Source: Planktothrix sp. PCC 11201 (lineage in GTDB: Bacteria > Cyanobacteriota > Cyanobacteriia > Cyanobacteriales > Microcoleaceae). From it: a DNA stretch of 37,200 nt. How positions within the stretch are numbered: the stretch's first letter is position 1; each line of letters opens with the position of its first letter. Below the pieces are notes generated by a model, which was not told the DNA's origin, did no database searches, and was given only the letters and a program-made list of their open reading frames with translations. The stretch spans positions 34,697 to 71,896 of the forward strand of contig NZ_LT797701.1 of assembly GCF_900009135.1 (NCBI RefSeq), read 5' to 3'. A program made the position numbers and the translations under genes. Positions 4,199 to 17,717 of the stretch are shown piece after piece.

Positions 4199-4567
4199 AT
4201 GGATGGACTGACCCAAAAAGTCGTCACTTTGACCCACAAAGTAGATGCCTTATACGAGATCATCACACAGCTTACGAATCAAGTCTCTGATCATTTGTCT
4301 CCAGAAGAAACCCCGAACTCATCCGATAAAACCATAGTTTTTCCCCCGTCCCTCCCCAATGTTCCCCAGACCCGCAAAGGTCTATCCCAACAGGAACACA
4401 AAGATATTTTGATTGATGATGAATATATAGAAACCAGTTACTATAGTCAAGAACCCTCTCTGACCGCCGACATTCAAATTCAACGACTAACGGCCCAACT
4501 CACTGCCGCCTATAACCGTATTGCGGCCTTAGAAGAACAGTTATTGTCAAAAAGAATACATTTTTAA
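4199..4567 (+). CDS. Hypothetical coiled-coil protein
   Basis: This 122-residue protein is not recognised. Both ends look like short coiled coils: about residues 5-32 (KVVTLTHKVDALYEIITQLT) and about 92-117 (QIQRLTAQLTAAYNRIAALE), with heptad-like Leu/Ile spacing. A Pro/Ser-rich acidic linker with DDEYIETSYY lies in the middle. A good ribosome site (ACAGGAG) lies 7 bases before the ATG. No enzyme motif or membrane segment is present, so it could be an adaptor or oligomerising protein. It converges with the macrocyclase gene and is probably not part of the cyanobactin pathway. Confidence 0.7.
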   Translation: MDGLTQKVVTLTHKVDALYEIITQLTNQVSDHLSPEETPNSSDKTIVFPPSLPNVPQTRKGLSQQEHKDILIDDEYIETSYYSQEPSLTADIQIQRLTAQLTAAYNRIAALEEQLLSKRIHF

Positions 4568-4579
4568 GATGCGGAGAAA

Positions 4580-4636
4580 GGGTGTTAATACCTCAACAGT
4601 CAAGTGGTAAACGTCAACTGTCAACGGTCAACACCC
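4580..4636. terminator. Possible bidirectional terminator between convergent genes
   Basis: A 7-bp inverted repeat, GGGTGTT (4580-4586) and AACACCC (4630-4636), encloses tandem TCAACNGTCAAC-type repeats. It lies between two convergent genes. There is no clear U-run, so terminator function is an inference. Confidence 0.35.
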
Positions 4637-4671
4637 AGCCCGCATCGGTTAAATGTAATACTCACCTATCT

Positions 4672-6747
4672 CTATTTCGGTACAGACCAAGAACGAACTT
4701 GTCCCAATGTAACCGGAATCATATAACTTACATCAATGGTAAAAAGATAAACCTTTTTGGCTCTCAAACCCCGTTCGGGATCAAAAAACTTTAATTTCAC
4801 ATCCCAACAATCGCTATTAACCCGACAGAAGGGACTTTTTTCGATTTCAATTGTATCTAATTCCATCCCGGTAGAAACAGCTTGAGCAAAACTAGAAGCG
4901 GCTTGAAAAGCGTTAGTTGCTGCAAAATTTAATGCCCGATCTTTAGATGTTTTTCCTAAATTTTGCAAATCAAAATAAACTCGTTTCAGAAAACTACTCA
5001 GAGATCTTCGCATTTCAATTTCGTTAGCGTCGGCTAGTTCTTCAGAAAGAGTTTGTAGGGCTGCATCCACTAAACCGTTGACTTTCCAACCGTACATTCC
5101 CCTGATGTTAGTAATAGTGATAACTGGAAGTTCTTGACCTGAAAATAGGGTAATTGTTTTATCAGTAATTTGTCCAGGAATACTCACCCTTTCCACATAA
5201 TCATCGCTACTTTCAGGTTCAATTTGTCCGGCTAATATTAAGTTAAGCATTTCGTAAATATCAGCAGCAAAACCACCTTTTATTTCTAGGGCATAGATAG
5301 GATTTAATTCTTGATTAATAGTCCAAATTAAGGACTTACTTTCCGAGGGATTCTCAGCTAAATAATTGACAAGTTGAGAAGCATTATAAGGATTAGCTGG
5401 AATGGTTATTCCGTCAATTTCTACGGGTGGCATTAACTGTTTAAAACTATCTCGTCTGGCTTCACTGCCGAAGTCATAACCAATTGTTCCTAAAACATAA
5501 ACTAGTTTAGAAACTGCACTAGCGGTAATCCCGTTAGTGGGTTGACTCGTGGTAATATTAGCCACCGCTACGGCTGAAGAACTCCTAGGAGTAGCGACAT
5601 CACTTAAAGTTAGTAACTGGCTGTTAATTGTATTTTCTATTCTCTTAATAGGAGTAACAGTATTAACCGAAATAGTAATTTCTGAGGGTCTAATTTCAGA
5701 CGTTTCAACTGTTGTTAATAGTTCTCCTGTTAATAAGTTGTAAGCCCCGGGAATATTTAATTTTCCTAATAAACAGCGTTCGGGTTCTTCTACTTCTTTG
5801 GGGTCGCAAGGAATAGCACTTTTTAAAATAGCTTGTCGCACGGTTTCTGCATTCGGTTTTTCTCCTCGTTGCAGTTGCATACTCATTAATAAAGCCGAAA
5901 TTCCGGTAACAATAGGGGCGGCACAACTTGTCCCTTGTTGTTTAATAGGAATATCTGTTCCAGGTTCAGCCCCTAAGATATTTTCACCGTTAGCCATCAC
6001 CCCTTTCTGTTGATAGTCACCCCCATAATTACTAAACTTAAAAGGTTGTCCATCATCACGCATTGCTCCCACTGTTAAAACATCGGGTAAAATCGAAGGA
6101 ATACACCAACATTCGCCTTTATCGTTACCACCAGGAGCTACAATTAAAATATTACTATCTTGACATTGTTTCACCGCACGAGCAAAGATTTCTTGAGCCA
6201 TTCCTGACTGAGTGGGATGACAAGCTGCAATATGAATAATATTAACCTCAGCTTTTAAGGCTTCGTTAATCGCATGGGTGAGGTTAACAAAGGAGATAAA
6301 ATCATCTCCAGCGAAGGAAATAGGAATATTAATCGCGGTACAATTAGGCGCGATACCAGCAACAGGAGAGCCATGTTGTCCTAAAATTGTACTCGAAATA
6401 TGGGTCGCATGACTAGATAAATCAATCCGTGTCTGAATGGGTTTAGGAAAATCCTTAAAGAAGGCTTCGCGTTCTTTTTTGGCTTCTTCTTTATCGTGGT
6501 CGGGGTCTTGTTTTTTGGCTTTTTGTTGTTGATTAAATTCTGTCGCTAATTTTAAATAATGATAATACTCATCATTGAGTTCAATATCTTCTGTCCAATA
6601 GGGTTTAAATTGAGTAAAATTTGCCCCTTTAAAACAAGCCCTGTCTAAGTCTGCCGCACCATCAAGGATAGCAATTTTAATCCGAGAATCTCCTTTAGTA
6701 TGAGTCCAAAGTTCGGATATTCCACGAATAGTAATTAAATCTGGCAT
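4672..6747 (-). CDS. patG: Cyanobactin macrocyclase, PatG-type subtilisin (no oxidase domain)
   Basis: In cyanobactin pathways the G protease cuts off the precursor follower and joins the new C-terminus to the core's free N-terminus. This 691-residue protein has an S8 fold at about residues 1-340 with Asp29 (AILDG), His113 (SSHATH), Asn208 (GGND) and Ser274 (GTSCAAP). Asp and His are 84 residues apart, against 35 in the PatA-like protein of this window. The extra stretch (about 46-108) is Lys/Glu-rich and helical, in the place where PatG macrocyclases carry their capping helices; this is why I call it G rather than A. Residues about 415-691 are homologous to the PatA C-terminus here (for example FKQLMP, IPANPY, SPFCR, DCWDVKLKFFDPE). 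The N-terminal oxidase of patellamide PatG is absent. It lies divergent to precursor E1. Confidence 0.9.
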   Translation of the reverse strand: MPDLITIRGISELWTHTKGDSRIKIAILDGAADLDRACFKGANFTQFKPYWTEDIELNDEYYHYLKLATEFNQQQKAKKQDPDHDKEEAKKEREAFFKDFPKPIQTRIDLSSHATHISSTILGQHGSPVAGIAPNCTAINIPISFAGDDFISFVNLTHAINEALKAEVNIIHIAACHPTQSGMAQEIFARAVKQCQDSNILIVAPGGNDKGECWCIPSILPDVLTVGAMRDDGQPFKFSNYGGDYQQKGVMANGENILGAEPGTDIPIKQQGTSCAAPIVTGISALLMSMQLQRGEKPNAETVRQAILKSAIPCDPKEVEEPERCLLGKLNIPGAYNLLTGELLTTVETSEIRPSEITISVNTVTPIKRIENTINSQLLTLSDVATPRSSSAVAVANITTSQPTNGITASAVSKLVYVLGTIGYDFGSEARRDSFKQLMPPVEIDGITIPANPYNASQLVNYLAENPSESKSLIWTINQELNPIYALEIKGGFAADIYEMLNLILAGQIEPESSDDYVERVSIPGQITDKTITLFSGQELPVITITNIRGMYGWKVNGLVDAALQTLSEELADANEIEMRRSLSSFLKRVYFDLQNLGKTSKDRALNFAATNAFQAASSFAQAVSTGMELDTIEIEKSPFCRVNSDCWDVKLKFFDPERGLRAKKVYLFTIDVSYMIPVTLGQVRSWSVPK

Positions 6748-6934
6748 AGTTATAGTTATCGATCAAATAATTTTAGTTTACATTAGAAGCACTCTACTCT
6801 TGAGCATTGTACAGAGAAACTTTACCTATTTGCTAATAAGCATTGTTAATAATCATTACAAAGACTCAACCACCAGCATAACCTTAGATTATCATCCAGT
6901 CAGTCAAACTTCAACTAATCTGGAGACACAAACA
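6748..6934. promoter_or_regulatory. Divergent control region between macrocyclase and precursor E1
   Basis: This 187-bp stretch separates the leftward macrocyclase start from the rightward E1 start. Its right part (about 6848-6934) is recognisably related to the upstream regions of the other precursor genes (AATCATTACAAAGAC, then CTTCAACTAATCTGGAGACACAAACA). The -35 element seen in the other copies (TTGACA) is degenerate here. Confidence 0.55.
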
Positions 6935-7090
6935 ATGATCAAGAAAAATATCCGTCCCCAACAATCTGCCCCTGTACAACGTCAAGTGACAACAACTTCT
7001 TGTCAAGGTGAAAAAGCATTATTTGCTAGTACAGAGTGTGATATTTTCACCAAACAATGTACTCCCTTTGCTGGAGACAACGCGGAGTAG
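6935..7090 (+). CDS. patE: Cyanobactin precursor peptide E1 (three-Cys core)
   Basis: This 51-residue precursor has leader MIKKNIRPQQSAPVQRQ, matching the M.KKN..PQ..PV.R leader shared by cyanobactin E peptides, and follower FAGDNAE. The residue before the follower is Pro44, the expected macrocyclisation site. The variable region (about 18-44) ends in CDIFTKQCTP and contains three Cys (23, 35, 42), Phe and no Tyr or Trp. With no heterocyclase in the window, the Cys should stay unmodified or form a disulfide. The follower has Asn where E2 and E3 have Asp. The start is set by the leader match and by GGAGA at 6922-6926; an upstream in-frame ATG (6800) is not credible. Only the core's C-terminal edge can be placed with confidence. 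Confidence 0.9.
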   Translation: MIKKNIRPQQSAPVQRQVTTTSCQGEKALFASTECDIFTKQCTPFAGDNAE

Positions 7091-7118
7091 TCCCCTTAAT
7101 TCCTAACACTTACCTGAG

Positions 7119-7241
7119 TTTCTACCCCCCTAGCCCCCCTTAGTAAGGGGGGAATAAGAAGCACAGCACTTTTAATCATCTTTAGTAAGGGGGAATAATA
7201 AGCAACTTTAGCCACTATTACTAAGGGGGGAATAAGGAGCA
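7119..7241. repeat. CCCCCTTAGTAAGGGGG-type palindromic repeat cluster
   Basis: The cluster begins with a C-rich/G-rich palindrome (CCCCCCTTAGTAAGGGGGG), then two further half-copies of (A)GTAAGGGGGGAATAA(G)AGCA follow in tandem. The same element family recurs at about 13009-13222, 13747-13812 and 15806-15835, always in non-coding gaps of the cyanobactin locus. Confidence 0.8.
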
Positions 7242-7261
7242 ACATAAATTACTAATCGGTT

Positions 7262-7468
7262 TCAAGCGACCTGTAATGTCTTTGGTTCTGGCAAAAGTTT
7301 CCCTATTTGCTCATAACCATACACTAAATCTTCTAAAACTTCCTTCGCGTTTTCTAGTGCTTCTTCATAGGTTTCGCCGTGAGTCCGTGCATATTGTCCC
7401 CACTCAGGTAAACTAGCAATATAAGCTTGATCTTCTTCAGACCACTGAATCAAAATACTATATTTCAT
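7262..7468 (-). CDS. hicB: HicB-like antitoxin
   Basis: This 68-residue protein has the HicB pattern: MKYSILIQWSEEDQAYIASLPEW, followed by AxTHGETYEEALENAKEVLEDL, a short partial RNase-H-like fold. HicB proteins neutralise HicA mRNA interferases. Its start codon overlaps the HicA-like stop by 4 bp (ATGA), so the two are translationally coupled, toxin gene first as usual for hicAB. No separate DNA-binding tail is seen, and it is at the short end of the family. Confidence 0.82.
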   Translation of the reverse strand: MKYSILIQWSEEDQAYIASLPEWGQYARTHGETYEEALENAKEVLEDLVYGYEQIGKLLPEPKTLQVA

Positions 7469-7695
7469 TGTTCATCTCCTTGTTCTAATTGTTCTGGTTC
7501 TTTTATGCTTGCCATTATATCTTTTTCCTGATAGTTTTTTGCATCCTTGCTGTCTTTACCAGAGAGAACGACAGGTTTCGGTAAAAGGGGATGAATCCAG
7601 TAAGAATGACTACCTTTTCCCCGTTTAGGCAAGAGTATAAATCCTGCTTTCTGTAACATTAACATTTGTTTCAATTCTCCAACTTTTTTGGGCAT
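7465..7695 (-). CDS. hicA: HicA-like mRNA interferase toxin
   Basis: HicA toxins are small double-stranded-RNA-binding-fold proteins that cleave mRNA. From Met 7695 the protein has MPKKVGELKQML, then AGFILLPKRGKGSHSYWIHP with the key His in GSHSYW, then strand residues KPVVLSGKD and a charged tail. A longer frame (ATG 7794, 109 residues) adds an N-terminus foreign to the family and runs close to the E2 control region, so I prefer the internal start, although neither has a clear ribosome site. It is the toxin half of a module lying between precursors E1 and E2. Confidence 0.78.
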   Translation of the reverse strand: MPKKVGELKQMLMLQKAGFILLPKRGKGSHSYWIHPLLPKPVVLSGKDSKDAKNYQEKDIMASIKEPEQLEQGDEQ

Positions 7696-7804
7696 TTGTC
7701 GTATAAATTTTGTTTGATTTTTGATTTTAAAATAACGACAGAACGACGCAATCTCACGGGGAATATGGTTCGGGAATATTGGGCTAACAATCATTACAAA
7801 AACC

Positions 7805-7834
7805 TTGACAAATCCTAAAGCATTAAGTTATGAT
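7805..7834 (+). promoter_or_regulatory. Promoter of precursor E2
   Basis: A consensus-like sigma-70 pair is visible: TTGACA (7805-7810), an 18-bp spacer and TATGAT (7829-7834). The E3 copy keeps TTGACA at 10349-10354, and the dead precursor copy has TTGACA at 9269-9274 with TAGGAT at 9293-9298. Conservation between copies supports a real promoter. Confidence 0.75.
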
Positions 7835-7874
7835 TCCCTAAATTCAAAACTCATAAAATTTGGAGACACAAACC

Positions 7875-8036
7875 ATGACTAAGAAAAACCTCAAACCCCA
7901 ACAAGCAGCTCCTGTGCAACGGGAAAATACTACAGCTACCGTTGGTGCTAAAGGGATCACCGCAGTTTCGTGGTCGGTGTGGCTTACTGGGGAATCGGTG
8001 CCGGGCTTGCCTTTTGCCGGCGACGACGCGGAGTAG
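7875..8036 (+). CDS. patE: Cyanobactin precursor peptide E2 (two-Trp core)
   Basis: This 53-residue peptide reads MTKKNLKPQQAAPVQRE (leader), a variable stretch (18-46) and FAGDDAE (47-53). The likely core lies in the part ending WSVWLTGESVPGLP, closing at Pro46; its N-terminal edge is not certain. Two Trp (33, 36) make it a candidate for Trp prenylation as known from kawaguchipeptin-type cyanobactins, using the F enzyme encoded at 11392-12318. There is no Cys. The ribosome site GGAGA (7862-7866) and the promoter at 7805-7834 fix the start. It is short enough to be missed by standard gene calling. The 3' flank after the stop matches those of E1 and E3 for about 28 bases. Confidence 0.92.
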   Translation: MTKKNLKPQQAAPVQRENTTATVGAKGITAVSWSVWLTGESVPGLPFAGDDAE

Positions 8037-8080
8037 TCCCCTTAATTCTAACATTTACCTCAAAAGTAGTTGGAGTCTTA

Positions 8081-8140
8081 TTCGAGAGATGAACCCCAGC
8101 CAACAGCTTACTACCCCAGGGTGATCGGCTTGGGTTCTTC
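8081..8140. repeat. RAYT-associated hairpin repeat, copy 1
   Basis: The sequence GAGAGATGAACCCCAGCC, then CAACAGCTTACTACCCCAG, can fold with a downstream GGCTTGGGTT arm into a hairpin. It matches the 3' part of the RAYT transposase gene (10742-10805), including frame-preserved GSKLLAGVHLS on the minus strand. It begins about 45 bp after the E2 stop. It may also act as a terminator of E2. Confidence 0.8.
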
Positions 8141-8214
8141 GCTTTGAGTTTACTTTTATTGTAAAATAGCTGAAGATACGAGAAAAAATTGGGATACAAG
8201 GGAAAAAAAATTTT

Positions 8215-8445
8215 ATGAAAACTGTTGACAAAACTCAATTAAAAGCTAATTTACTAGAATTGTTGCAAATTGTGGAGTCACAAGGAGAAGATATTTTGGT
8301 GACAGAGGGGAGTAAACCAGTGGTGAGAATTTCCCCATATAAAAAAAGTTATTCAACGGCGGAATTATTTAAGAATATGCGAGGAAAAGTTCAGTATTTT
8401 GAAGATTTAACTACCCCAACAACGGAAGAATGGCAGGAAATATAA
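8215..8445 (+). CDS. Phd/YefM-type antitoxin
   Basis: This 76-residue protein has the Phd/YefM antitoxin pattern: an N-terminal DNA-binding half (KTVDKTQLKANLLELLQIVESQGEDILVTEGSKPVVRISPY) and a disordered toxin-binding tail (AELFKNMRGKVQYFEDL). Its last 16 bases overlap the start of the PIN-domain gene, the usual arrangement for such modules. It should repress its own operon and bind the toxin. Because the partner is now frameshifted, it may have only a regulatory role or be decaying. Confidence 0.83.
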   Translation: MKTVDKTQLKANLLELLQIVESQGEDILVTEGSKPVVRISPYKKSYSTAELFKNMRGKVQYFEDLTTPTTEEWQEI

Positions 8446-8842
8446 AAATCGTTCTTGATACTTGCGCTCTAATTTGGTGGAGTTTAGATCCAGACAAACT
8501 TTCTCAAAAGGCAAAGGAAGCTTGTGAACAGATGGAACAGAAAAAAAATGGTTTAGTGCCATCAATAGCAGTCTGGGAAATAGCGATTAAGATTAAAAAC
8601 CGCAAATTAGATTTAGGAGTGGATATTGATGACTATATTGCTACTCTTAAAAGGTCTGAGGTTGTGCGGATTATCCCAATAGATGAGGAAATTTGGTTAG
8701 ACAGTGTTAAGTTAGAATGTTAGAATGGGAACACCGAGATCCGGCAGATAGAGTAGTTGTAGCAATTGCCCAAAGAAACCAAGCCGATATTATTACCGCC
8801 GATCAAAAAATAGCTAGTTTTTATTCTTCAGTAATTTGGTGA
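8430..8842 (+). pseudogene. PIN-domain (VapC-type) toxin, frameshifted
   Basis: The first frame (8430-8723) encodes MAGNIKIVLDTCALIWW (acidic PIN residue in LDT), then AVWEIAIKIKNRKLDL, and stops after SVKLEC. The rest of the family pattern continues in another frame: LEWEHRDPADRVVVAIAQ, then ADIITADQKIASF, ending at TGA 8840-8842. The break is an exact 8-bp tandem duplication of TTAGAATG (8712-8719 and 8720-8727). Deleting one copy restores a continuous PIN protein of about 134 residues with the conserved HRDPADR acidic site. The toxin is therefore probably inactive, unless slippage on the repeat restores the frame. Its end overlaps the convergent gene that follows. Confidence 0.88.
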
Positions 8843-9158
8843 GATGCAGTAGTGAAGTAAGTTGACGTTCTTGAGATATTTCTCGTTTAATATCTTGGAC
8901 AAGATCAACAATTTTCTCCCTTGAATCATAACCTGCTTCGGTCAAAGATTGTTTTAATTCCAGTTGTAATTGTTCTGCTGACATTAAAGGATGTTGTTGA
9001 TATTCTTTGATTTGTTCCCAAAATTCATTAACCTCTGTTTCTGTTTCTTCCCAAAGAATAATAACTCTTACGGAACTGGGTGGAGTCCCTTTAATTGGGT
9101 AGTCTAAAGATAATTGACCTACCTTATCTATCTTTCCAGTAGATTGAATTGCTTTCAT
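8814..9158 (-). CDS. Hypothetical protein, antitoxin-like N-terminus
   Basis: This protein of about 114 residues starts from Met 9158 (MKAIQSTGKIDKVGQLSLDY); a start 21 bases upstream is possible. The N-terminal 45 residues form a short beta-rich segment (TGKIDKVGQLSLDYPIKG, then SSVRVIILWEE) that I associate with small cyanobacterial proteins found near toxin genes. The C-terminal part is Glu/Lys/Gln-rich and helical. Its 3' end overlaps the convergent PIN pseudogene by about 29 bp. The function is unknown; an antitoxin role is a guess from context. Confidence 0.55.
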   Translation of the reverse strand: MKAIQSTGKIDKVGQLSLDYPIKGTPPSSVRVIILWEETETEVNEFWEQIKEYQQHPLMSAEQLQLELKQSLTEAGYDSREKIVDLVQDIKREISQERQLTSLLHLTKLLKNKN

Positions 9159-9249
9159 AGTTATAAAGACTTTTGCCAACGACTTTTACTTACCTAGTCC
9201 ATTCTACCACTACCTCACTCAAACACAATCTCACCAGAAATATTAGGTC

Positions 9250-9342
9250 AATAATTATAACAAAAATCTTGACAAGTAGCCTATCTTTAATTTAGGATGC
9301 TCTCAAATTCAACTTCAACTAAATGTGGAGAAACAAACCATG
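9250..9342 (+). pseudogene. Dead cyanobactin precursor: promoter, ribosome site and ATG only
   Basis: The upstream part matches the E2 and E3 control regions: ACAAAAATCTTGACAA, a -10 TAGGAT (9293-9298), then CTAAATGTGGAGAAACAAACC and ATG at 9340-9342. Directly after the ATG the sequence switches to the RAYT-type hairpin repeat (TTTTGAGAGATGAACCCC). The frame stops after two codons (ATG TTT TGA). No leader, core or follower is left. This is the scar of a fourth precursor copy removed by an insertion or deletion. Confidence 0.85.
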
Positions 9343-9403
9343 TTTTGAGAGATGAACCCCAGCCAACAGCTTACTACCCCAGTGGCATTGGGTTGGGGTC
9401 TTC
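9343..9403. repeat. RAYT-associated hairpin repeat, copy 2
   Basis: The sequence TTTTGAGAGATGAACCCC through ATTGGGTTGGGGTCTTCT is almost identical to 10742-10802 in the RAYT gene, and weaker similarity continues for about 25 bases. Arms ACCCCAGCCAA and TTGGGTTGGGGT form an imperfect stem. It abuts the ATG of the dead precursor copy. Confidence 0.82.
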
Positions 9404-9480
9404 TCTTTGGCTTTATACCTTTGGCAGAATTATATGGGCTATAATCTTAGGGTAAACCCAATTAAATCTTAACAGGAAAA

Positions 9481-9873
9481 ATGACTCAAATCACGATTAA
9501 TTTACCTGAAAGTTTACTGGAATCTGCTCAACGTCTAGGAAATGCTACGGCGCGAGAGCTATCAGAGGTTTTAGTTGATACCCTAGAAATCATTTTACCT
9601 GCTTTTAATAATTTTTCAAAAAGTGGCAATCATGTTGAAGTTTCCAATCTTTTAGATGCCGAAGTTATTGAATTAGCTAATTTAAAAATGGATGCAGTCC
9701 AAAATCAACGTTTGGGAGAACTACAAGCTCAGGGAAAAAATACCGGATTGACTGAAGCTGAAGGCTATGAATTATTGGTTTTAATCTCAATTTATCAAAT
9801 GGGGCAATTAAGAAAATCAACAGCGTTAGCTGAAGCGGTTAAACGAGGATTGAGAGAGCCTTTATTACCATGA
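9481..9873 (+). CDS. Hypothetical protein paired with an HNH gene
   Basis: This 130-residue protein is not recognised at family level. The N-terminus TQITINLPESLLESAQRLG looks like a ribbon-helix-helix-type or antitoxin-like start; the remainder is helical and Glu/Leu/Ala-rich with no enzyme motif. The stop overlaps the HNH gene start by 4 bp (ATGA), so the two form one translational unit. A ribosome site is weak (AACAGGAAAA just before the ATG). The pairing resembles a two-gene accessory module in which the first protein could control the nuclease; this is an inference from arrangement only. Confidence 0.7.
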   Translation: MTQITINLPESLLESAQRLGNATARELSEVLVDTLEIILPAFNNFSKSGNHVEVSNLLDAEVIELANLKMDAVQNQRLGELQAQGKNTGLTEAEGYELLVLISIYQMGQLRKSTALAEAVKRGLREPLLP

Positions 9874-10289
9874 GTTTTCTCTCAGAAAGTTTGCGCGAAA
9901 AGGTTAGAAAACGGGCAGAAAATCGCTGTGAATATTGTCTAAGTCACCAAGATTATATTATGGGTAGATTGCAAATTGATCATATCCAGCCTTTAGCTAA
10001 AGGTGGGGCTAATACAGAAGATAATTTATGTTTAGCTTGTGAATTATGCAATCAATATAAGTGGATACAAACTGAGGCTATTGATTCTGAATCTGAGGAG
10101 TTGGTTTCTTTATTTAATCCTCGCCTTCAAAAATGGCAAGAACATTTTACTTGGAGCCCAGAGGGAACAGAAATTATGGGAATAACGGCTTGTGGTAGAG
10201 CGACAATTATGGCTTTAAGATTAAATAATAATCTGGCTGTTATTGTCCGTAAAAATCGGGTGAAAGCTGGTTGGCATCCACCTGATTAA
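9870..10289 (+). CDS. HNH endonuclease
   Basis: This 139-residue protein has a complete HNH core: CEYCLSHQDY (zinc Cys pair), LQIDHIQPLAKGGANTEDNL (catalytic His in DHI, Asn in the NTEDNL segment), and CLACELCNQYKW (second Cys pair and the final Asn). The C-terminal 60 residues (FNPRLQKWQEHFTW, then GRATIMALRLNN) follow the pattern of small cyanobacterial HNH proteins. Such nucleases cut DNA, but here the target is unknown. It is translationally coupled to the preceding gene and ends about 60 bp before the E3 promoter, so it belongs to the DNA inserted between precursor copies. Confidence 0.87.
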   Translation: MSFLSESLREKVRKRAENRCEYCLSHQDYIMGRLQIDHIQPLAKGGANTEDNLCLACELCNQYKWIQTEAIDSESEELVSLFNPRLQKWQEHFTWSPEGTEIMGITACGRATIMALRLNNNLAVIVRKNRVKAGWHPPD

Positions 10290-10348
10290 TTTCAAACAGA
10301 ATCTCACTGAGAATATTAAATATTCGATTAACATTTATTACAAAAATC

Positions 10349-10378
10349 TTGACAAATTCTAAAGCATGGTACCGTTAA
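10349..10378 (+). promoter_or_regulatory. Promoter of precursor E3
   Basis: ACAAAAATCTTGACAAATTC matches the E2 control region, with a perfect TTGACA at 10349-10354. The -10 element at the expected spacing is weak (around 10372-10378), so this copy may be less active than E2. Confidence 0.6.
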
Positions 10379-10416
10379 CCCAATACTACTCATCAATAAA
10401 TGTGGAGACACAAACC

Positions 10417-10566
10417 ATGACTAAGAAAAACCTCAAACCCCAACAAGCCGCACCCGTACAACGGGAAATAAATACCACTCCCTCTGAGTGTCAAACAGGG
10501 CTGACACCCCAGATGGGCCACTACGGACACCCAACCGCTCCTTTTGCGGGCGACGATGCGGAATAG
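10417..10566 (+). CDS. patE: Cyanobactin precursor peptide E3 (Tyr/His core)
   Basis: This 49-residue peptide has leader MTKKNLKPQQAAPVQRE, identical to E2, and follower FAGDDAE (43-49). The variable part (18-42) ends in QMGHYGHPTAP, closing at Pro42. Tyr36 is a possible site for O-prenylation as in the prenylagaramide pathway. Two His and a Met make the core unusual. One Cys (25) probably lies in the leader side. The ribosome site GGAGA (10404-10408) fixes the start; an upstream in-frame ATG at 10366 lies inside the promoter region and is rejected. The core's N-terminal cut site cannot be read from sequence. It is the precursor nearest the prenyltransferase, although a transposase gene lies between them. 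Confidence 0.92.
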   Translation: MTKKNLKPQQAAPVQREINTTPSECQTGLTPQMGHYGHPTAPFAGDDAE

Positions 10567-10599
10567 TCCCTTTGATTCTAACACTCACCTTAAAAAATG

Positions 10600-11361
10600 T
10601 CAACAGTCTTTTTCCAACTGCCATGGCGCACGGTTCGCCTCGATGAATTGACGCACAATCCTTGTTAATTCGGGGCTTTCGGATACCTGGCAGCGAACGA
10701 GACGAGACTTAGATTTTTTGGGGTGGGTGGTTGGACCCGGTTTTGAGAGATGAACCCCAGCCAACAGCTTACTACCCCAGTGGCATTGGGTTGGGGTCTT
10801 CTTCTCCTTCGGTTTGTACCTTTGACAAAAGCCTTTGTACTTTCTGGCACATTCTTCTAAACTGTTCCCTAGTTGTAGAAAAGCGGGATGCCATTGAGTC
10901 AAGCCATCATCGGTTAAACGCTCATAACTGCCGTAGTTACTGAAATCGTAGAAGAAACCAGAACGCATTTTTGCTGCTTTCGGGTTGCCATGAATGTAGC
11001 GTAAGGTATTTAATGCTCTGTCTCTATCTGAAACTGGAAAGCCATCACAGAAATAACGTTTTTCCCAAAAATGTCCTGTACGTCTGAGCATTCGATTGAA
11101 ACACATCGCCGTGTACCAATTGAGGAAGTGCATGATTTTGGGTAAATCTTCGGGTTGGGCAGGTTCAATCAGGTAATGAACATGATTAGACATAATACAG
11201 AGAGCATAGAGCTTAAACTTGTATTTGTTCAAAGCCTTCTGGATAGCATAAAGAAACACTTCCCGACACTTGCGCTTTTGCAGTTTAAACTCACGGTTAT
11301 TGCAACGGATGGTGATATGGTAAGAATATCCAGACTGTAAATTTCGAGGTTTTCTAGGCAT
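10600..11361 (-). CDS. RAYT / IS200-like Y1 transposase
   Basis: This is a REP-associated tyrosine transposase-like protein of 253 residues from Met 11361 (MPRKPRNLQSGYSYHITIRC). The HUH metal-binding motif is seen in IMSNHVHYLIEP and the catalytic Tyr probably in FLNWYTAMCFNR; HFWEKRYFCDGFPV and TLRYIHGNPKAAKM are typical of the family. Such enzymes nick and join single-stranded DNA next to hairpins. Residues after about KPKEK are encoded by the hairpin repeat and then by flanking DNA, so the C-terminal 70 residues may be read-through. The longer frame (Met 11433) overlaps the prenyltransferase start and is less likely. It begins only 30 bp from the divergent F gene. Confidence 0.85.
   Translation of the reverse strand: MPRKPRNLQSGYSYHITIRCNNREFKLQKRKCREVFLYAIQKALNKYKFKLYALCIMSNHVHYLIEPAQPEDLPKIMHFLNWYTAMCFNRMLRRTGHFWEKRYFCDGFPVSDRDRALNTLRYIHGNPKAAKMRSGFFYDFSNYGSYERLTDDGLTQWHPAFLQLGNSLEECARKYKGFCQRYKPKEKKTPTQCHWGSKLLAGVHLSKPGPTTHPKKSKSRLVRCQVSESPELTRIVRQFIEANRAPWQLEKDC
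10742..10805. repeat. RAYT-associated hairpin repeat, copy 3 (inside the RAYT gene)
   Basis: The sequence TTTTGAGAGATGAACCCC to TTGGGTTGGGGTCTTC lies within the 3' part of the transposase frame, where it encodes CHWGSKLLAGVHLSKPG on the minus strand. It is the probable source of the copies near E2 and at the dead precursor. It probably marks the transposon end that the enzyme recognises. Confidence 0.8.
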
Positions 11362-11391
11362 ACTTTTTAACAATATAAAAACTAGCCATTT

Positions 11392-12318
11392 ATGATAGCT
11401 GATGTAATCCAAAAGGACAGACTTAAAGAACAAAAACTACAGTTTATTCGCAATCATCAACAAGCCTTTGATGTTGAGCCTATTTATCCGCTCCCCTTGT
11501 TTGAAGACTTTGTAATGAGCGTTGATGGTGACTGCACGATTGAGGCTTCTTGCAAGGTCGAATTGGATAAACTAATCGCATCCAGATTTCTATTCTTCTT
11601 TAAGGATAAGGCTCAGGACTGGCCAAGCTACTTGTCTCAGGGGTTGTCCTTCTTTAAGCAGGTTGAAACCCAAGTTGGTGTTCAGCTTGACTACTCATTG
11701 CTACAGGCTTTTCTCGGTACAGACTTTGACTTTAGCCGTGTCAGAACATTCACCACAGGGATTGATCTACGGCGTGAGTCCTTAGCAGAATCTAGCGTTA
11801 AAATTCATTTCAGAATCGAGGATTATATCGAAAAAGTTCAAACTGCAATTATCTTGAGCGGTGGTGAATTTGGCTTCTTAGAGGACTTTCCTAAAAAATT
11901 TCTTGCTCGGTATATTCCCCAAATTGGCTTTGACTTTTACTTTAATGGTCGCTGTGAAATTGAGCTTTATTTTGAAGTAATAGAGTGTAATTTTGACGAT
12001 CCTAACGTTAAACAGTATCTCTGGAGTAAGATGCCTCCTATAGCCTTAGCACCCTTAAAAGATACTGCTGTGTTTCATCTTGGGCTATCTAAAGCTAATA
12101 CTAATCCAGTATTTTACTATCAACTTAAAAAATACAAAGGAAATTTATTAAACTACTTTAGACTTAATGATGATGCTATGCGAGTTGATAGTTTTTATCG
12201 AAACCAAGACACAGACTATGGTGGCTGGGTAGGGGTTGCCCTAGAGGAACTCGAAAAAACGAGAATAGAAAATATTAGACTTTATTATCACAAATATTTT
12301 AAAATGGAGTCAAATTGA
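11392..12318 (+). CDS. patF: Cyanobactin prenyltransferase (PatF/TruF/PagF/KgpF family)
   Basis: Members of this family are ABBA-fold enzymes that attach dimethylallyl (or geranyl) groups to side chains or termini of cyclic cyanobactins. The 308-residue length fits. The recognisable start is KDRLKEQKLQFIRNHQQAFDVEPIYPLPLFE, followed by DGDCTIEASCKVE, FLFFFKDKAQDWPSYLSQGL and, later, TTGIDLRRESLAESSVKIHFRI, all family hallmarks. Whether it modifies Tyr (PagF-like), Trp (KgpF-like) or another residue cannot be read from motifs. E3 offers a Tyr and E2 two Trp. The gap of 30 bp to the RAYT gene leaves little room for a native promoter (a TATAAA lies near 11375). The stop shares one base with the Uma2 start. 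Confidence 0.9.
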   Translation: MIADVIQKDRLKEQKLQFIRNHQQAFDVEPIYPLPLFEDFVMSVDGDCTIEASCKVELDKLIASRFLFFFKDKAQDWPSYLSQGLSFFKQVETQVGVQLDYSLLQAFLGTDFDFSRVRTFTTGIDLRRESLAESSVKIHFRIEDYIEKVQTAIILSGGEFGFLEDFPKKFLARYIPQIGFDFYFNGRCEIELYFEVIECNFDDPNVKQYLWSKMPPIALAPLKDTAVFHLGLSKANTNPVFYYQLKKYKGNLLNYFRLNDDAMRVDSFYRNQDTDYGGWVGVALEELEKTRIENIRLYYHKYFKMESN

Positions 12319-12896
12319 TGTTAATCACGAAACCTCGCTTTCAAACCTTTGCTGAATATCTGCAATATGACGATAATTCAGAAAAACTCTGTGAATTATT
12401 TAATGGAGAATTGGTAGAAATGCCACCAGAATCAGGGTTTAATTTTCAAATTGCTAATCGCCTTTTTTTGGTTTTTGCTTTAATACTAGGAACTGATAGA
12501 GTTAGAGGTCATGGCTTAGAATTAGAAGTCAGAGGTGAACCGAAAAACCGTTACCCTGATTTGACCATTATTCGAGAAGAACATATTCAATTACTCTCCA
12601 AGAGAAATACCATTCTTCTTTCCATGTCACCACCTTTATTGGTCATTGAAGTGGTTAGTCCTGGGGAAATTCAAAGAGAAAGAGATTACATCGCCAAAAA
12701 ATTACAATATCAAGATTGTGGCATTCCCGAATACTGGATAGTTGATCCTCAAACTCAAACCATTTTAGTCTTAGAACTAACTGGAGATACCTATAGGGAA
12801 ATCGGTAATTTTACCAACGATGATTTAGTTGTCTCTCCTGGACTTAAAGAATTAAACTTAAAAGTCTCCGAGGTATTTAATTCAACCAGTTTATAA
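12318..12896 (+). CDS. Uma2-family (DUF820) putative restriction-like endonuclease
   Basis: Uma2 proteins have a PD-(D/E)XK nuclease fold and are very abundant in cyanobacteria; their biological role is unclear. In this 192-residue protein the conserved parts are FAEYLQYDDNSEKLCELFNGELVEMPP, YPDLTIIREEHI (acidic residue), LLVIEVVSPGEIQRERDYIAKKLQYQ (Glu and Lys of the active site) and IPEYWIVDPQTQTILVLEL. The start is ATG 12318, which shares its A with the TGA of the prenyltransferase (TGATG), so it is translated with F. Despite that coupling there is no reason to think it acts in cyanobactin synthesis. Confidence 0.85.
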   Translation: MLITKPRFQTFAEYLQYDDNSEKLCELFNGELVEMPPESGFNFQIANRLFLVFALILGTDRVRGHGLELEVRGEPKNRYPDLTIIREEHIQLLSKRNTILLSMSPPLLVIEVVSPGEIQRERDYIAKKLQYQDCGIPEYWIVDPQTQTILVLELTGDTYREIGNFTNDDLVVSPGLKELNLKVSEVFNSTSL

Positions 12897-12922
12897 ATAT
12901 TAGACTTTGTTATTACAAATCC

Positions 12923-13031
12923 TTTACAAATTAAATATCACTTTTGATGATTAATAACTCAGGAAAACATCAACATGAACAAAATGACTAACATTACCAT
13001 CTGTTTCTACCCCCCTAACCCCCCTTACTAA
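12923..13031 (+). pseudogene. Stranded original 5' end of the patA-like gene
   Basis: A promoter-like pair (TTTACA 12923-12928, GATGAT 12946-12951), AGGA at 12961-12964 and ATG at 12975 lead into 21 bases (12975-12995) identical to the first 21 bases of the patA-like gene at 13829-13849 (MNKMTNI). After that the frame enters the C-rich palindromic repeat and stops at 13029-13031. The TTACAAAT context around the -35 resembles the precursor promoters. This looks like the native patA start cut off from the rest of the gene. Confidence 0.8.
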
Positions 13032-13222
13032 GGGGGGGATAAGAGGAAGCAGGAAGCATCCCTAGCTACTCTTACTAAAGGGGGAATAAGAGGAAGCATC
13101 CCTAGCTACTCTTATTAAAGGGGAGAATAAGAGGAAGCACCCCTAGCTACTCTTAGTCAGGGGAAATTAAAAGCCTTTAGCCCCCCTAAAAGCCTTTAGC
13201 CCCCCTTAGTTGGGGGGTAGCC
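13009..13222. repeat. Palindromic C/G repeat with 40-bp tandem units
   Basis: The region starts with CCCCCCTTACTAAGGGGGGG and continues with tandem units of about 40 bp (13064-13103 and 13104-13144, plus partial units on both sides) containing CTCTTACTAAAGGGGG and AATAAGAGGAAGCA. It ends with a doubled AAAAGCCTTTAGCCCCCC and TTAGTTGGGGGG. No coding sequence is seen from 12897 to 13285 apart from the patA relic. Confidence 0.85.
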
Positions 13223-13519
13223 ACCAGGGAATAAAAAGAACTATGTATTAAAGAACAAAATTATGATTAAATATGACTAAACTATATGACTGAACTTTAT
13301 AACAGAAATTCCGAAAAAGAGAAACGACAATTTTTACGCAATAACATGACGGCGGCCGAACAAAAATTGTGGTTACAACTTAAAGGAAAGCAATTAGAAA
13401 ACTGTAAATTTCGGCGACAATATAGTGTATCTCAATTTATTATTGATTTTTATAGTCCAGAAATTAAACTCGCTATTGAAGTTGATGGCGACAGTCACTT
13501 TCAAGAAGGAGCGCAAGAA

Positions 13520-13610
13520 TAAGCTGTTGAGCATTTAAACTGTATATTTTAGAGGCTGAAACCCCTTACTGGCTTGGATCGTCTCGAAAATTTAGATAAT
13601 TAACAGCTTA
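13520..13610. mobile_element. 91-bp MITE, copy 1
   Basis: Termini TAAGCTGTT and AACAGCTTA form perfect 9-bp inverted ends including the TA target duplication typical of IS630/Tc1-mariner elements. The inner sequence has no coding capacity. It is identical over its full length to 16643-16733 in the opposite orientation. Its insertion point inside the DUF559 frame gives direct evidence of transposition. Confidence 0.92.
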
Positions 13611-13746
13611 CGACCGAGAAAGACAACAGTTTATCGAGTCAGCTAGAATTACTTTTCTGAGGTTTACCAATGATGACGTATATGATAATATTTCAGCAGT
13701 TTGTGAAGTCATCACAGAAAAAATTCAATCCTTAAGAAAGCCTTCA

Positions 13747-13812
13747 GAAGCCCCCCTTAGTCAAGAAAATCTTCCAAAAGCCCCCCTTAGTAAGGGGGGT
13801 TGGGGGGGGGTA
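13747..13812. repeat. CCCCCCTTAGT repeat, two copies, ending in a long G-run
   Basis: The motif GAAGCCCCCCTTAGT occurs at about 13747-13761 and, as AAAGCCCCCCTTAGT, at about 13778-13792. The second copy continues into AAGGGGGGTTGGGGGGGGG. It lies immediately before the patA-like gene, where a ribosome site would be expected. Confidence 0.75.
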
Positions 13813-13828
13813 AAACAAATACAATCAA

Positions 13829-15805
13829 ATGAACAAAATGACTAACATTCCCGGACTGAAAAAACTATGGTCAGAAACTAGAGGTGATCCTAAAATTTGT
13901 GTCGCTATACTTGATGGTATAGTTGACCAAAATCACCCCTGTTTCATCGGTGCTGACTTAACCCGACTTCCTAGTTTAGTTTCGGGAGAAGCCAACGCCA
14001 ACGGCTCCATGTCTGCTCACGGCACTCATGTTGCTAGTATTATATTCGGTCAATATGATTCACCAGTAACAGGAATTGCTCCCAATTGTCGGGGTTTAAT
14101 TGTTCCCGTTTTTGCTGATGAAAGTCTAAAATTATCCCAATTAGACTTATCTCGTGCGATAGAGCAAGCTGTTAATAACGGAGCACAAATTATTAATGTC
14201 AGTGCCGGACAATTAACTGATGCAGGAGAAGCAGATACTTGGTTAGAAAAAGCTATCCAATTATGCCAAGAAAACAACGTATTGCTAATCGCAGCAACGG
14301 GAAATGATGGCTGTGAATGTTTGCACGTCCCCGCCTCTTTACCGACTGTTTTAGCAGTGGGAGCAATGGATGATCAAGGTAAACCCGTTGACTTTAGTAA
14401 CTGGGGCGAAGCATACCAAAAGCAAGGCATTCTTGCCCCTGGAAAAGATATTTTAGGAGCAAAACCGGGCGGTGGTACAGTCAAATTGAGTGGGACAAGT
14501 TTTGCGACTCCCATTGTGAGTGGAGTTGCAGCTTTATTACTGAGTTTACAACTCAAAAGAGGGGAAAAACCTGACCCGCAAAAAGTTAAAAATGCTCTTT
14601 TACAAAGTGCTACCCCCTGTAATCCCAAAGATACCAATGATTTAAGTCGTTGTTTAATGGGAAAATTAAACATCCTTGATGCGATAGAATACTTAACAGG
14701 AGAAACCATGTCCGAAGGATTAGAATTAGAAAGCGTAGAGGCTTCTGGTTGTGGTTGCCAAGAGACTCAAATTAACGAGTCTGAACTTGATAGTGAACTA
14801 CAACCCGCATCGGAAATAAACCCCGATGAAATAGTTGCTTCTGTGACGACCCAAACCCCGATTAATATTCCCTCATTCCCTCAACAAATTACAACCCAAC
14901 CCGTTATGTCCAATCGTACCTCAAATTTTGTGACTGCCAGTGAAGCCCCTAGCGAACTTGAAGGCAAAAACTTAGTTTATGCTTTAGGTGTTTTGGGTTA
15001 TGATTTCGGTTCAGAGGCTCGCAGAGATTCCTTTAAACAACTGATGCCAGGAGTTAGTATTGAAGGAACAATGATTCCTGCTAATCCCTACGATGCTCGG
15101 CAAATGGTAGATTATTTAGGAGAAAATTTACCCGAAGCTAAAGCGTTAATTTGGACACTTAATTTAGAGTTAACTCCTATTTATGCCATTGAACCCGTAG
15201 GCGGTTTTTCCCGAGATGTTTATGAGGTTTTACAATCACTTTTAGACGGGCAAATTCAAGAAGAAAATAATCCCGAATTTGTGCAACGAGTTAGTATTCC
15301 TGGTGTTTTAACCGGACGTAGTGTTAAGTTATTCTCAGGACAAGTTGTTCCGGTAATTGAAATTAATAATACTCGTGGTTTATACGGCTGGAAAGTTAAT
15401 ACCTTAGTCAGTGCCGCAATTGAAAGTGTGCAAGCTGAAGCTGGTGATGCTCAAGAAGATGCCATTCGCCGCACCTTAAGCAGCTTCTTAAATCGGATTT
15501 ATTATGATTTACGCAACTTAGGTACAACCTCTCAAGACAGAGCTTTAAATTTTGCTTCTACAAATGCTTTCCAAGCCGCCCAAACCTTTGCTCAAGCGGT
15601 GGGTGCAGGTTATGAATTAGATAGTATTACCGTAGAAAAAAGTCCTTTCTGTCGTTTAGATAGCGATTGTTGGGATGTGAAATTAAAATTCTTTGACCCG
15701 GAAAATAGCCGTCGCGCCAAAAAAATCTATCGCTTTACCATTGATGTTAGCGATACCATTCCTGTCACCTTGGGTGAAGTTCGTTCTTGGTCAAGCGCTT
15801 ATTAA
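13829..15805 (+). CDS. patA: Cyanobactin N-terminal protease, PatA-type subtilisin
   Basis: The A protease of cyanobactin pathways cleaves the leader from the core. This 658-residue protein has an S8 domain (about 1-290) with Asp29 (AILDG), His64 (AHGTHVAS), Asn159 (ATGND) and Ser224 (GTSFATP). The short Asp-His spacing, without the capping-helix insert, separates it from the G-type protein. A linker with SGCGCQET (near 313) leads to a C-terminal domain (about 380-658) closely related to that of the macrocyclase. No ribosome site precedes ATG 13829; the sequence there is ACAATCAA after a G-run. The same 21-base start, with an AGGA site, remains 854 bp upstream, so expression may be altered. 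It is followed by two small genes in order A-B-C. Confidence 0.92.
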   Translation: MNKMTNIPGLKKLWSETRGDPKICVAILDGIVDQNHPCFIGADLTRLPSLVSGEANANGSMSAHGTHVASIIFGQYDSPVTGIAPNCRGLIVPVFADESLKLSQLDLSRAIEQAVNNGAQIINVSAGQLTDAGEADTWLEKAIQLCQENNVLLIAATGNDGCECLHVPASLPTVLAVGAMDDQGKPVDFSNWGEAYQKQGILAPGKDILGAKPGGGTVKLSGTSFATPIVSGVAALLLSLQLKRGEKPDPQKVKNALLQSATPCNPKDTNDLSRCLMGKLNILDAIEYLTGETMSEGLELESVEASGCGCQETQINESELDSELQPASEINPDEIVASVTTQTPINIPSFPQQITTQPVMSNRTSNFVTASEAPSELEGKNLVYALGVLGYDFGSEARRDSFKQLMPGVSIEGTMIPANPYDARQMVDYLGENLPEAKALIWTLNLELTPIYAIEPVGGFSRDVYEVLQSLLDGQIQEENNPEFVQRVSIPGVLTGRSVKLFSGQVVPVIEINNTRGLYGWKVNTLVSAAIESVQAEAGDAQEDAIRRTLSSFLNRIYYDLRNLGTTSQDRALNFASTNAFQAAQTFAQAVGAGYELDSITVEKSPFCRLDSDCWDVKLKFFDPENSRRAKKIYRFTIDVSDTIPVTLGEVRSWSSAY

Positions 15806-15835
15806 CCCCCCCTACCCCCCTTATTAAGGGGGGAA
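15806..15835. repeat. CCCCCCTTATTAAGGGGGG palindrome
   Basis: One copy of the C/G palindromic repeat follows the patA-like stop codon directly. It can fold into a hairpin and may lower read-through into the downstream small genes. Confidence 0.75.
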
Positions 15836-15868
15836 TTAAAAATAAATAATCAGTAAGGATTAAATCAA

Positions 15869-16075
15869 ATGAGATTACCTAACCTTTCCCCTCCTGTTAA
15901 AAGACCTGATGTTATTTATCCCCATCATTCGGTTGATGTGGTTCATGGTACTGTTGATGAATTACTGAGTATTCGCTTAAAATTATTACACGGTGCTAAT
16001 TATAACGACCCCGCAGCTTTTGCGAACCGAAGCTATCAACAACTTAAATCTTCAGGTTGTCGATGTGGATTTTAA
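15869..16075 (+). CDS. patB: Small conserved cyanobactin-cluster protein, PatB/AcyB-like
   Basis: This 68-residue protein is without catalytic motif: MRLPNLSPPVKRPDVIYPHH, then VDELLSIRLKLLHGANYNDP, ending SSGCRCGF. The position directly after the A protease and the MRLP..PPVKRPD start match small B-type proteins of cyanobactin clusters as I remember them. Their role is unknown, and B/C genes are reported as dispensable in some systems. AAGGA at 15855-15859 precedes the ATG. The two C-terminal Cys (GCRCGF) could bind metal or form a disulfide. The B versus C label could be reversed. Confidence 0.72.
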   Translation: MRLPNLSPPVKRPDVIYPHHSVDVVHGTVDELLSIRLKLLHGANYNDPAAFANRSYQQLKSSGCRCGF

Positions 16076-16122
16076 TATAGGTTGTGGTTTTTACTTAAAT
16101 TGAACAAGGAGTTAAGGGAATT

Positions 16123-16320
16123 ATGAGCAAGGAAAAAAATCCAAAGGCAGAAAATAAAGTGACTAAATCTATTAGCAAACCCGAAAAAAAAGAAATTCAA
16201 CAAGATTGTCTCATGACTGGACTTTCGGATTATGGTTTTTGGTCACAAAAGGTTAAAGAAGAAGTTGCAGCCCGAAAAGAGCCTGATGCTCCTTTCCGTC
16301 GGGGTCGAATTTGGTGTTAG
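16123..16320 (+). CDS. patC: Small conserved cyanobactin-cluster protein, PatC/TenC-like
   Basis: This 65-residue protein has a Lys/Glu-rich first half (KEKNPKAENKVTKSISKPEK) and a more conserved-looking second half, DCLMTGLSDYGFWSQKVKEE and RRGRIWC. The last part resembles small C-type proteins found beside cyanobactin proteases. The ribosome site AAGGAG (16106-16111) is clear. It ends the A-B-C unit, after which transposon debris begins. Function unknown; assignment by position and partial motif only. Confidence 0.65.
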   Translation: MSKEKNPKAENKVTKSISKPEKKEIQQDCLMTGLSDYGFWSQKVKEEVAARKEPDAPFRRGRIWC

Positions 16321-16418
16321 TCTTGGTGCGATCGCAATTCAGGATCAAGTGCAGTTAAATTAAAGAGCGATCGCTGTTAATTATAAAAATAGCGATCACT
16401 TTGGGGTTTCTGGTGTAG

Positions 16419-16642
16419 TATAGCAACCGCCAAGGCGGTTAGGACACAAGACGCAGTACATTCTCAATTGCCTCTCGTAAGGAATCAAAGTGAGTTAATT
16501 GATGACGGATTCGACTCTTTAACCACGACCAAGAGTTCTCAATCTTGTTAAGATCAGGTGAATAGGGTGGTAAGGAATGAAAAATCAATAAATGGATTAA
16601 TGAGTGAGTTGAGGTACGGCTCGATAGTTCCATTTGGGTAAA
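16419..16642 (-). pseudogene. IS630-family transposase fragment with one element end
   Basis: The minus-strand frame 16439-16633 encodes SLPPYSPDLNKIENSW and LKSRIRHQLTHFDSLREAI, the C-terminal DDE part of IS630 transposases (final Glu in KIENSW). The N-terminal two thirds are missing, and the sequence before LPPYSPD is shortened. TATAGCAACCGCC (16419-16431) just beyond the stop is the element's terminal repeat; the same 13 bases form one end of the small element at 22969-23051. The fragment is truncated by the MITE next to it. Confidence 0.82.
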
Positions 16643-16733
16643 TAAGCTGTTAATTATCTAAATTTTCGAGACGATCCAAGCCAGTAAGGGGTTTCAGCCT
16701 CTAAAATATACAGTTTAAATGCTCAACAGCTTA
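16643..16733. mobile_element. 91-bp MITE, copy 2 (inverted)
   Basis: This is the reverse complement of 13520-13610 without a single difference, with ends TAAGCTGTT and AACAGCTTA. It sits exactly between the IS630 fragment and the ISAzo13 fragment and provides the stop codon (complement of TTA 16731-16733) of the latter. Confidence 0.92.
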
Positions 16734-17484: not shown

Positions 17485-17717
17485 GGGTTTTCGGGTCAAG
17501 CTGTGTAATTCAATCGAAAAATCTGTTGCCAGGTTCTCTCGATTTTTGTAAAATCTGCCATCAGTGGCTATACTTCATTATATCTAATAATTCATCAAGT
17601 TATTACTTTCCCATTCCTTAGTTTGAATTTATCTCTTTTTTAGAGAATATTTTTATTAAAATTATCTTTAAACAGTTAGATGGTGCATGGACTGGCGCTG
17701 ACATACCCTACAATTAA

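Follow-up and report, generated by a model that had tools for sequence, protein, structure and literature searches.

A Planktothrix cyanobactin cluster whose precursor block is very probably built around a resident RAYT transposase gene

The stretch analysed here (the window) comprises 37,200 nucleotides of Planktothrix sp. PCC 11201 (contig NZ_LT797701.1, positions 34,697 to 71,896), lying on contig C19 of genome G000 in our numbering, a genome of 5.99 Mb that is 99.71% complete. Its positions 4672-16320 hold what is very probably an anacyclamide/piricyclamide/prenylagaramide-type (acy/pir/pag) cyanobactin cluster, with a precursor block built around a resident RAYT transposase gene that sits between the last precursor gene (E) and patF. 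The link extends well beyond this strain: RAYT sequence in antisense orientation marks precursor genes in many cyanobacteria. The features of the locus, in positions of the window, are as follows.

4672..6747, minus strand: patG-type macrocyclase, 691 amino acids; TIGR03895 (E 2.5e-251), PatG_C, PatG_D
6935..7090, plus strand: precursor E1, 51 amino acids; TIGR04446 (pren_cyc_PirE, 1.6e-22); predicted core TECDIFTKQCTP, with two Cys
7875..8036, plus strand: precursor E2, 53 amino acids; TIGR04446 (5.6e-19); predicted core VSWSVWLTGESVPGLP
8074..8141, plus strand: hairpin copy shortly after E2, with the RAYT C-terminal end missing
about 9238..9345, plus strand: relic of a fourth precursor, in which the ATG, preceded by a promoter block and a ribosome site, runs straight into the hairpin; repeat families D6 and D7
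9337..9404, plus strand: hairpin copy at the fourth-precursor relic
10417..10566, plus strand: precursor E3, 49 amino acids; TIGR04446 (3.2e-21); predicted core QMGHYGHPTAP
10575..10603, minus strand: promoter-like element aimed antisense into E3; TTGACA, 17 nt, TG-extended TAGAAT
10600..11361, minus strand: RAYT, Y1 HUH transposase; PF01797 (2e-19); reading frame open to 11433
10735..10802, plus strand: hairpin copy within the 3' part of the RAYT gene
11392..12318, plus strand: patF-type prenyltransferase, divergent from RAYT; TIGR04445 (3.1e-119)
13829..15805, plus strand: patA-type leader protease; TIGR03895 (9.9e-286)
15869..16075, plus strand: patB; TIGR04220 (1.6e-35)
16123..16320, plus strand: patC; TIGR04447 (4.8e-18)

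A constrained RAYT gene within the precursor block

The RAYT gene is convergent with E3 (tail-to-tail, 33 bp) and stands back-to-back with patF. Its product carries the motifs NHVH and YIHGNP, in which both His and the Tyr are invariant among 21 aligned relatives; it scores 61.6 bits against NF047646, short of the curated cut-off of 80, and a sequence search for solved relatives returned none at E up to 0.01. Searching the genome with the RAYT sequence gave one full-length copy and two fragments, all at this locus, the fragments being copies of a hairpin located inside the gene. On plasmids we found matches in 15 records, the best covered with 62% identity over 88% and another with 73% over 48%; 20 pattern matches on viral contigs were followed up and none was confirmed.

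With the RAYT/TnpA-REP proteins (RAYT standing for REP-associated tyrosine transposase) the gene shares the Y1 HUH domain, the NHVH and YIHxNP motifs and, as a candidate cognate element, a hairpin within the gene, a trait described as common in subclass 2.4 (PMC6006769). It differs in having a small number of hairpins, all at a single locus, in that their foot reads GAAG and not GT[AG]G, and that the NF047646 cut-off is missed. The W motif (WE) and the Y motif fit subclass 2.4 poorly (WQ, YIxNNP) and resemble those of subclass 2.1, for which the table in that account lists no REP (PMC6006769).

Two readings of this gene have to be weighed against the evidence as it comes. RAYT might be an active engine of core turnover, a HUH enzyme acting on single-stranded DNA that cuts at the hairpins and excises, copies or exchanges precursor cassettes; we judge this quite unlikely. 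It might also be no more than an insertion sequence that became trapped, holding its place through an ancestral accident that was then frozen; the remnants beside E genes would be debris of duplication and have no function. To this we would give slightly less than an even chance. The single full-length copy, with other matches of the subfamily confined to the locus, speaks for an active role. So does purifying selection: judged from substitution patterns, the gene is under constraint, its ratio of non-synonymous to synonymous substitution rates (dN/dS) being 0.06-0.18 (16 of 28 pairs computable), next to 0.09-0.11 for patA and 0.09-0.16 for patG. Yet mobile transposases are in general subject to purifying selection too, which suits a trapped element. 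Between genera the synonymous divergence of RAYT falls below that of patA (dS 0.71 vs 1.75 for the window and G481), again favouring activity, but the comparison with the same-genus genome G001 goes the other way (0.69 for RAYT, 0.35 for patA), suggesting a mixed history.

Antisense RAYT sequence marks precursor genes across cyanobacteria

TIGR04446 searches of 148 relatives and of 388 genomes of the class gave 72 E matches (48 plus 24 new). The match in G150, whose surroundings were not fetched, was dropped, and the remaining 71 include partial and relic matches. RAYT-coding DNA lies within 400 bp downstream of 43 of these 71 (two of the 43, in G140 and G268, being weak RAYT matches), in no case in sense orientation, and 24 of the 40 tails that reach the RAYT C-terminus do so at exactly +43 nt after the precursor. 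Tails occur in 18 of 29 genomes, from at least six families, and in G009 they stand behind 11 of 13 precursor matches. As a control, only 7 of 347 other open reading frames (ORFs) of the same loci have RAYT sequence downstream, five of the seven antisense. In the window, E1 has no RAYT match within 400 bp downstream; the E1-type precursor of G004 has one at +199.

Starting from RAYT gave the same picture. Among the best 80 of 206 RAYT loci in named genomes, with flanking sequence of 6 kb at most and less where a contig ended, 17 of the 19 top loci (L112-L130) carry E or pat genes, while the remaining 61 show no pat match at E under 1e-6 and an E gene in one (L134). Linked loci include those of Planktothrix, Microcystis, Dolichospermum, Nodularia, Anabaenopsis, Nostoc, Limnothrix, Oscillatoria, Argonema and Arthrospira, and at 14 of 15 loci with a patF match the RAYT and patF alignments begin back to back, less than 90 bp apart. 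In a tree of 26 RAYTs, eight from cyanobactin loci group together with two Trichodesmium copies among them; inner support is low, and the cyanobactin-locus label changes 2 times, against 6.9 with shuffled labels. In the Trichodesmium genome with those copies (G015), the cyanobactin locus contains RAYT fragments too. That this genome holds several RAYT copies, some outside the locus, suits a trapped insertion sequence.

We infer from this association that E cassettes would have been duplicated together with the 3' end of RAYT, so that antisense RAYT sequence came to mark precursors. Such copying does not demand an active enzyme, as any tandem duplication of E would bring the neighbouring RAYT end along. 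Duplication debris, for its part, would not lead one to expect a reading frame that stays open at the same place across many genera, together with a conserved noncoding spacer.

A transposase at this place has been noted cluster by cluster, for arthrospiramide (PMC4663559), sphaerocyclamide (PMC6162287) and Limnothrix (PMC6256058), and the pag transposase has been named ISpagF and described as single-copy (PMC9366434, citing Donia and Schmidt 2011). These accounts treat a transposase between E and F, or within the cluster, as incidental (PMC4663559, PMC6162287, PMC6256058, PMC9366434), in keeping with a trapped element. While single clusters with a transposase there were thus already reported, we found no generalisation in the open-licence literature searched, and no statement in it that the transposase is a RAYT, that remnants lie behind each precursor or that there is an antisense promoter.

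At one locus, L195 (in G475), a deletion has fused the RAYT gene, at its residue 255, with the final codons of patA; RAYT and its hairpin are kept, most of patA is gone, and no precursor was matched.

A hairpin inside the gene recurs at the precursors

The genome holds three hairpin copies, all in the locus, a count given alike by a covariance model and by a pattern search tolerating up to 3 mismatches; the idea of a dispersed REP was rejected for this genome on that count. Searched against the class (388 genomes) with E up to 1e-4, a model trained on 12 copies gave eight matches, all eight in cyanobactin loci and three of them our own copies. Two genomes reached in this way (G475 and G411) had shown no PirE match earlier, and their pat genes were found after the hairpin match had located the place. 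In 25 relatives, at E up to 0.01, 12 of 14 matches lie in cyanobactin loci; another, in G002, adjoins a patG scrap, HicAB and Uma2 and looks like a cluster scar, and the one remaining, in G012, is weak. Strong matches to the model may therefore serve as a practical marker, having pointed to cyanobactin loci even in two genomes where the precursor search found nothing.

The bearing of the hairpin on an active role is divided. In its favour, 12 of 15 cyanobactin-locus RAYTs have a hairpin more stable than its synonymous recodings, with z of -1.8 or lower (RNA energies, E strand; -2.4 in our own gene). The same holds for 2 of 12 other RAYTs, three of these 12 having been placed at a non-homologous motif. 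Breaks also recur at its edge: RAYT tails in the G009 units and in one G001 unit end just before the hairpin, our own relic begins at it, and our own E2 is joined close to it. Nevertheless, judged from sequence, breaks caused by an enzyme and breaks at a hairpin that is a mere weak spot would look the same. The foot GAAG, where the canonical GT[AG]G is missing, speaks against activity, and so does covariation, whose support is weak: with a preset structure, three compensated pairs emerged from a narrow set of 12 sequences, a score equalled in 1 of 500 shuffles, but sliding the structure by one column scores higher (0.150 vs 0.136). An Rfam search of positions 4000-17700 gave three weak matches, all below gathering, which we took as chance.

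A promoter-like element between precursor and RAYT

About 35 bases separate the stop codons of E and RAYT, and their sequence is conserved across genera. Between the window and a Limnothrix cluster (G182, locus L119) 25 of 35 spacer bases are identical, despite synonymous sites of RAYT near saturation (proportion of synonymous differences, pS, 0.71). The spacer after tailed precursors may be an antisense promoter, whose RNA against the precursor mRNA would tune which core is made; we regard this as possible rather than probable. Read toward E, the spacer resembles a promoter made up of TTGACA, 17 nt and a TG-extended TAGAAT, each box exact or nearly so, and the start is predicted to fall on the stop codon of E. 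On a scale with a maximum of 13, which counts two hexamers at a distance of 16-18 nt as well as the TG, sites of at least 10 pointing toward E were found at 27 of 43 tailed E matches and 0 of 28 untailed ones, and on the opposite strand at 1 of 43. Likewise, 17 of 21 representative spacers reach such a score, against 1 of 56 sites after RAYTs without the link. (The 21 omit L113, L128, L129 and L130, where the E stop was not located, and G417b, the same as G481b; the 56 are the 61 loci above minus L134, which has E, and L141, L148, L157 and L184, at contig ends.) Every aligned row scoring at least 9 has the 17-nt spacing.

Other observations pull away from a promoter. The case is one of matching a consensus, in rows that are related by descent, and the 17-nt interval is no less conserved (0.90) than the boxes that flank it (0.81 and 0.86), so the spacer could be a different element. 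The spacers of G009_u1, G113b and G383f fail to match, a scan of the window shows the site of E3 alone, and no such RNA was found in the open-licence literature searched. Control of the precursors by this promoter is thus a predicted function.

Cluster class, enzymes and predicted products

The biosynthetic set consists of patG, E1, E2, E3, patF, patA, patB and patC, each above its own NCBI family cut-off (35 bits for TIGR04446, exceeded by all three precursors) and each with an intact reading frame. An earlier note, made from the DNA letters, had listed exactly these genes as PatG-type, three E, PatF-family, PatA-type, B and C, and the family matches bear it out. It had also reported no D gene, naming beforehand a D gene elsewhere in the genome as what would overturn its forecast: YcaO (PF02624) has no match across the 99.71%-complete genome, the same search being positive in 5 of 14 control genomes. 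Nor does any oxidase domain match in patG, whose first Pfam domain is the protease, beginning at residue 22. The forecast of cyclic, possibly prenylated products without azolines agrees with what the gene set predicts. That inventory did, however, pass over the RAYT gene, the three hairpin copies and the fourth-precursor relic, and among the genes it called foreign several (HicAB, HNH, Uma2, DUF559) recur in the clusters of related genomes.

The lack of D and oxidase is unsurprising because it is the norm of the pir/acy/pag class, whose rings are described as plain, prenylated, geranylated or disulfide-bridged (PMC3428304; PMC4663559). Following the established pathway, PatA would cut the leader off before the core, PatG would remove the FAGD(D/N)AE tail while closing the ring head to tail at the terminal Pro of the core, and PatF may attach an isoprenoid. 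As neither D nor an oxidase is found, the products should be free of azolines. Motifs that we take to be those of the subtilase triad are found in both patA and patG. Solved PatG macrocyclase domains match patG (4h6x, residues 7-348; 4aks, residues 7-341), and the closest relatives of the patF product in the PDB are PagF (5tty, 5.8e-118) and PirF (6pgm, 1.8e-106). The window F is 94% identical to the F of G464, from another family, and 36% identical to that of the same-genus G001, so F alleles seem to have been exchanged beside RAYT.

All three precursors consist of a leader, one Pro-ending core and an FAGD(D/N)AE follower, and the core ends agree with those given earlier (Pro44, Pro46 and Pro42). 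Judged against precursors from related genomes, the leaders are predicted to end in GLTP (E3), GITA (E2) and FAS (E1), and the sites of cleavage, the expression and the products are predictions as well. None of the exact cores TECDIFTKQCTP, VSWSVWLTGESVPGLP and QMGHYGHPTAP was found in the open-licence literature searched. The earlier suggestion that the cores may be undescribed therefore stands for the exact sequences, but E1 is a close variant of TFCDLATKQCYP, the core of PirE4, reported as a disulfide piricyclamide of Microcystis (PMC3428304), and its product probably carries a disulfide as well. The E1-type precursors of G000 (our own) and of three other same-genus genomes (G001, G009 and G004) share TECDI(F/L)T(K/R)QCTP, their cores being near-identical. 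The cluster thus belongs to a known natural-product class and adds three core sequences to it.

No coding sequence remains in the relic of the fourth precursor. A sigma-70-like site lies upstream of E2, and E3 has the same promoter block (repeat D6). The idea that tailed precursors have hypervariable cores and untailed ones conserved cores looked suggestive from E1, present in 4 genomes, and from the g6 precursors, present in 5. It is broken by G383, G464 and G041. Diverse cores at E genes without a RAYT match (G383, G464) also speak against RAYT as an active engine of core turnover.

Among known systems, the pag clusters of P. agardhii and P. rubescens share the genus, the absence of D, several pagE genes and GLTP at the core start (PMC9366434; PMC4663559), besides the single-copy ISpagF and a transposase within the cluster in seven strains (PMC9366434); they differ in their cores and, going by the identities above, in F. 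The pir clusters of Microcystis have TIGR04446 precursors in separate E genes with one core each, and neither D nor oxidase, but a different gene order as tabulated (PMC3428304). In a Microcystis metagenome-assembled genome (L113) RAYT is convergent with E, as here. The acy/sph clusters lack D and have a transposase between sphE and sphF (PMC6162287), the published primer PreR (PMC6162287) matching the window within the RAYT end with mismatches at 3 of 28 positions; they differ in that each is described with a single E gene (PMC4663559). Separate precursor genes are known in number, with 1-4 pirE in Microcystis (PMC3428304) and 1-12 pagE in Planktothrix clusters (PMC9366434).

Several results weigh against a cluster of this class built around a resident RAYT. 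E genes have no RAYT beside them in 11 of the 29 genomes with E matches, and five of these 11 (G014, G020, G025, G029 and G032) have RAYT matches elsewhere. The genome itself has six PF01797 matches, five of them outside the locus, which the RAYT sequence itself did not find. The training sequences of the hairpin model come from cyanobactin loci, which biases it toward finding such loci, and the filters of the 388-genome search were stricter; RNAalifold, applied to 22 hairpin sequences from wide relatives, returned no consensus fold. As to the products, the end of the E2 leader departs from the usual GLTP. The PatF of the window has His at the site that we take to be Phe222 in PagF and Gly in PirF, making donor, acceptor and prenylation uncertain.

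A possible part of RAYT in precursor turnover

Taken to its full extent, an active role would have the transposase itself move or delete cassettes. Precursor cassettes (sense promoter, E, antisense promoter, RAYT end) would be governed by a resident HUH transposase under selection, which works at its own hairpins and so multiplies the cassettes, removes them or passes them between clusters and genera. The enzyme would have been domesticated to turn over a library of peptides, every one of them under antisense control. We hold this composite to be very unlikely. The estimates given for an active enzyme, a trapped element and antisense control are for readings that are not mutually exclusive. 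For the question of how the precursor genes of cyanobactins increase in number and exchange their cores, the RAYT link offers an enzyme, a DNA hairpin and a promoter-like element as concrete objects to test.

Neighbouring genes, repeats and a second partial copy

HicAB, Phd/PIN and HNH-type genes lie between the precursors (7262-7794, 8215-8723, 9481-10289). HicAB and HNH recur in the cyanobactin clusters of several relatives and hence look like residents, not recent strays.

About 25 kb beyond the window, at about 96,770-98,680 of the same contig C19 (L192:10770-12677), lies a second, truncated copy that contains a patF scrap, patA residues 252-658, patB and patC. Over 1765 bp it is 98.2% identical to window positions 14583-16347, the patB protein being merely 90% identical. 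A 94-bp element is present in two inverted copies that are 100% identical (13517-13610 and 16643-16736). One copy interrupts a DUF559 gene, the insert being missing in the aligned L031, and the other shares bases with the end of a remnant ISAzo13-like transposase.

The cluster might be silent or decaying in this strain, which we consider unlikely. The 94-bp insert in DUF559, the E relic and the truncated second patA-B-C copy would fit decay, and piricyclamide clusters are described as sometimes broken (PMC3428304). On the other side, all eight biosynthetic ORFs are open, and E2 has the sigma-70-like site upstream, in a promoter block that E3 shares.

The first 21 bases of patA are duplicated (12975-12995 and 13829-13849) with the DUF559 region between them. 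Finally, nine repeat copies, 62-100% alike and arranged around the palindrome CCCCCCTTAGTAAGGGGGG, lie between the cluster genes (7124-7238, 13009-13226, 13771-13807 and 15805-15841).

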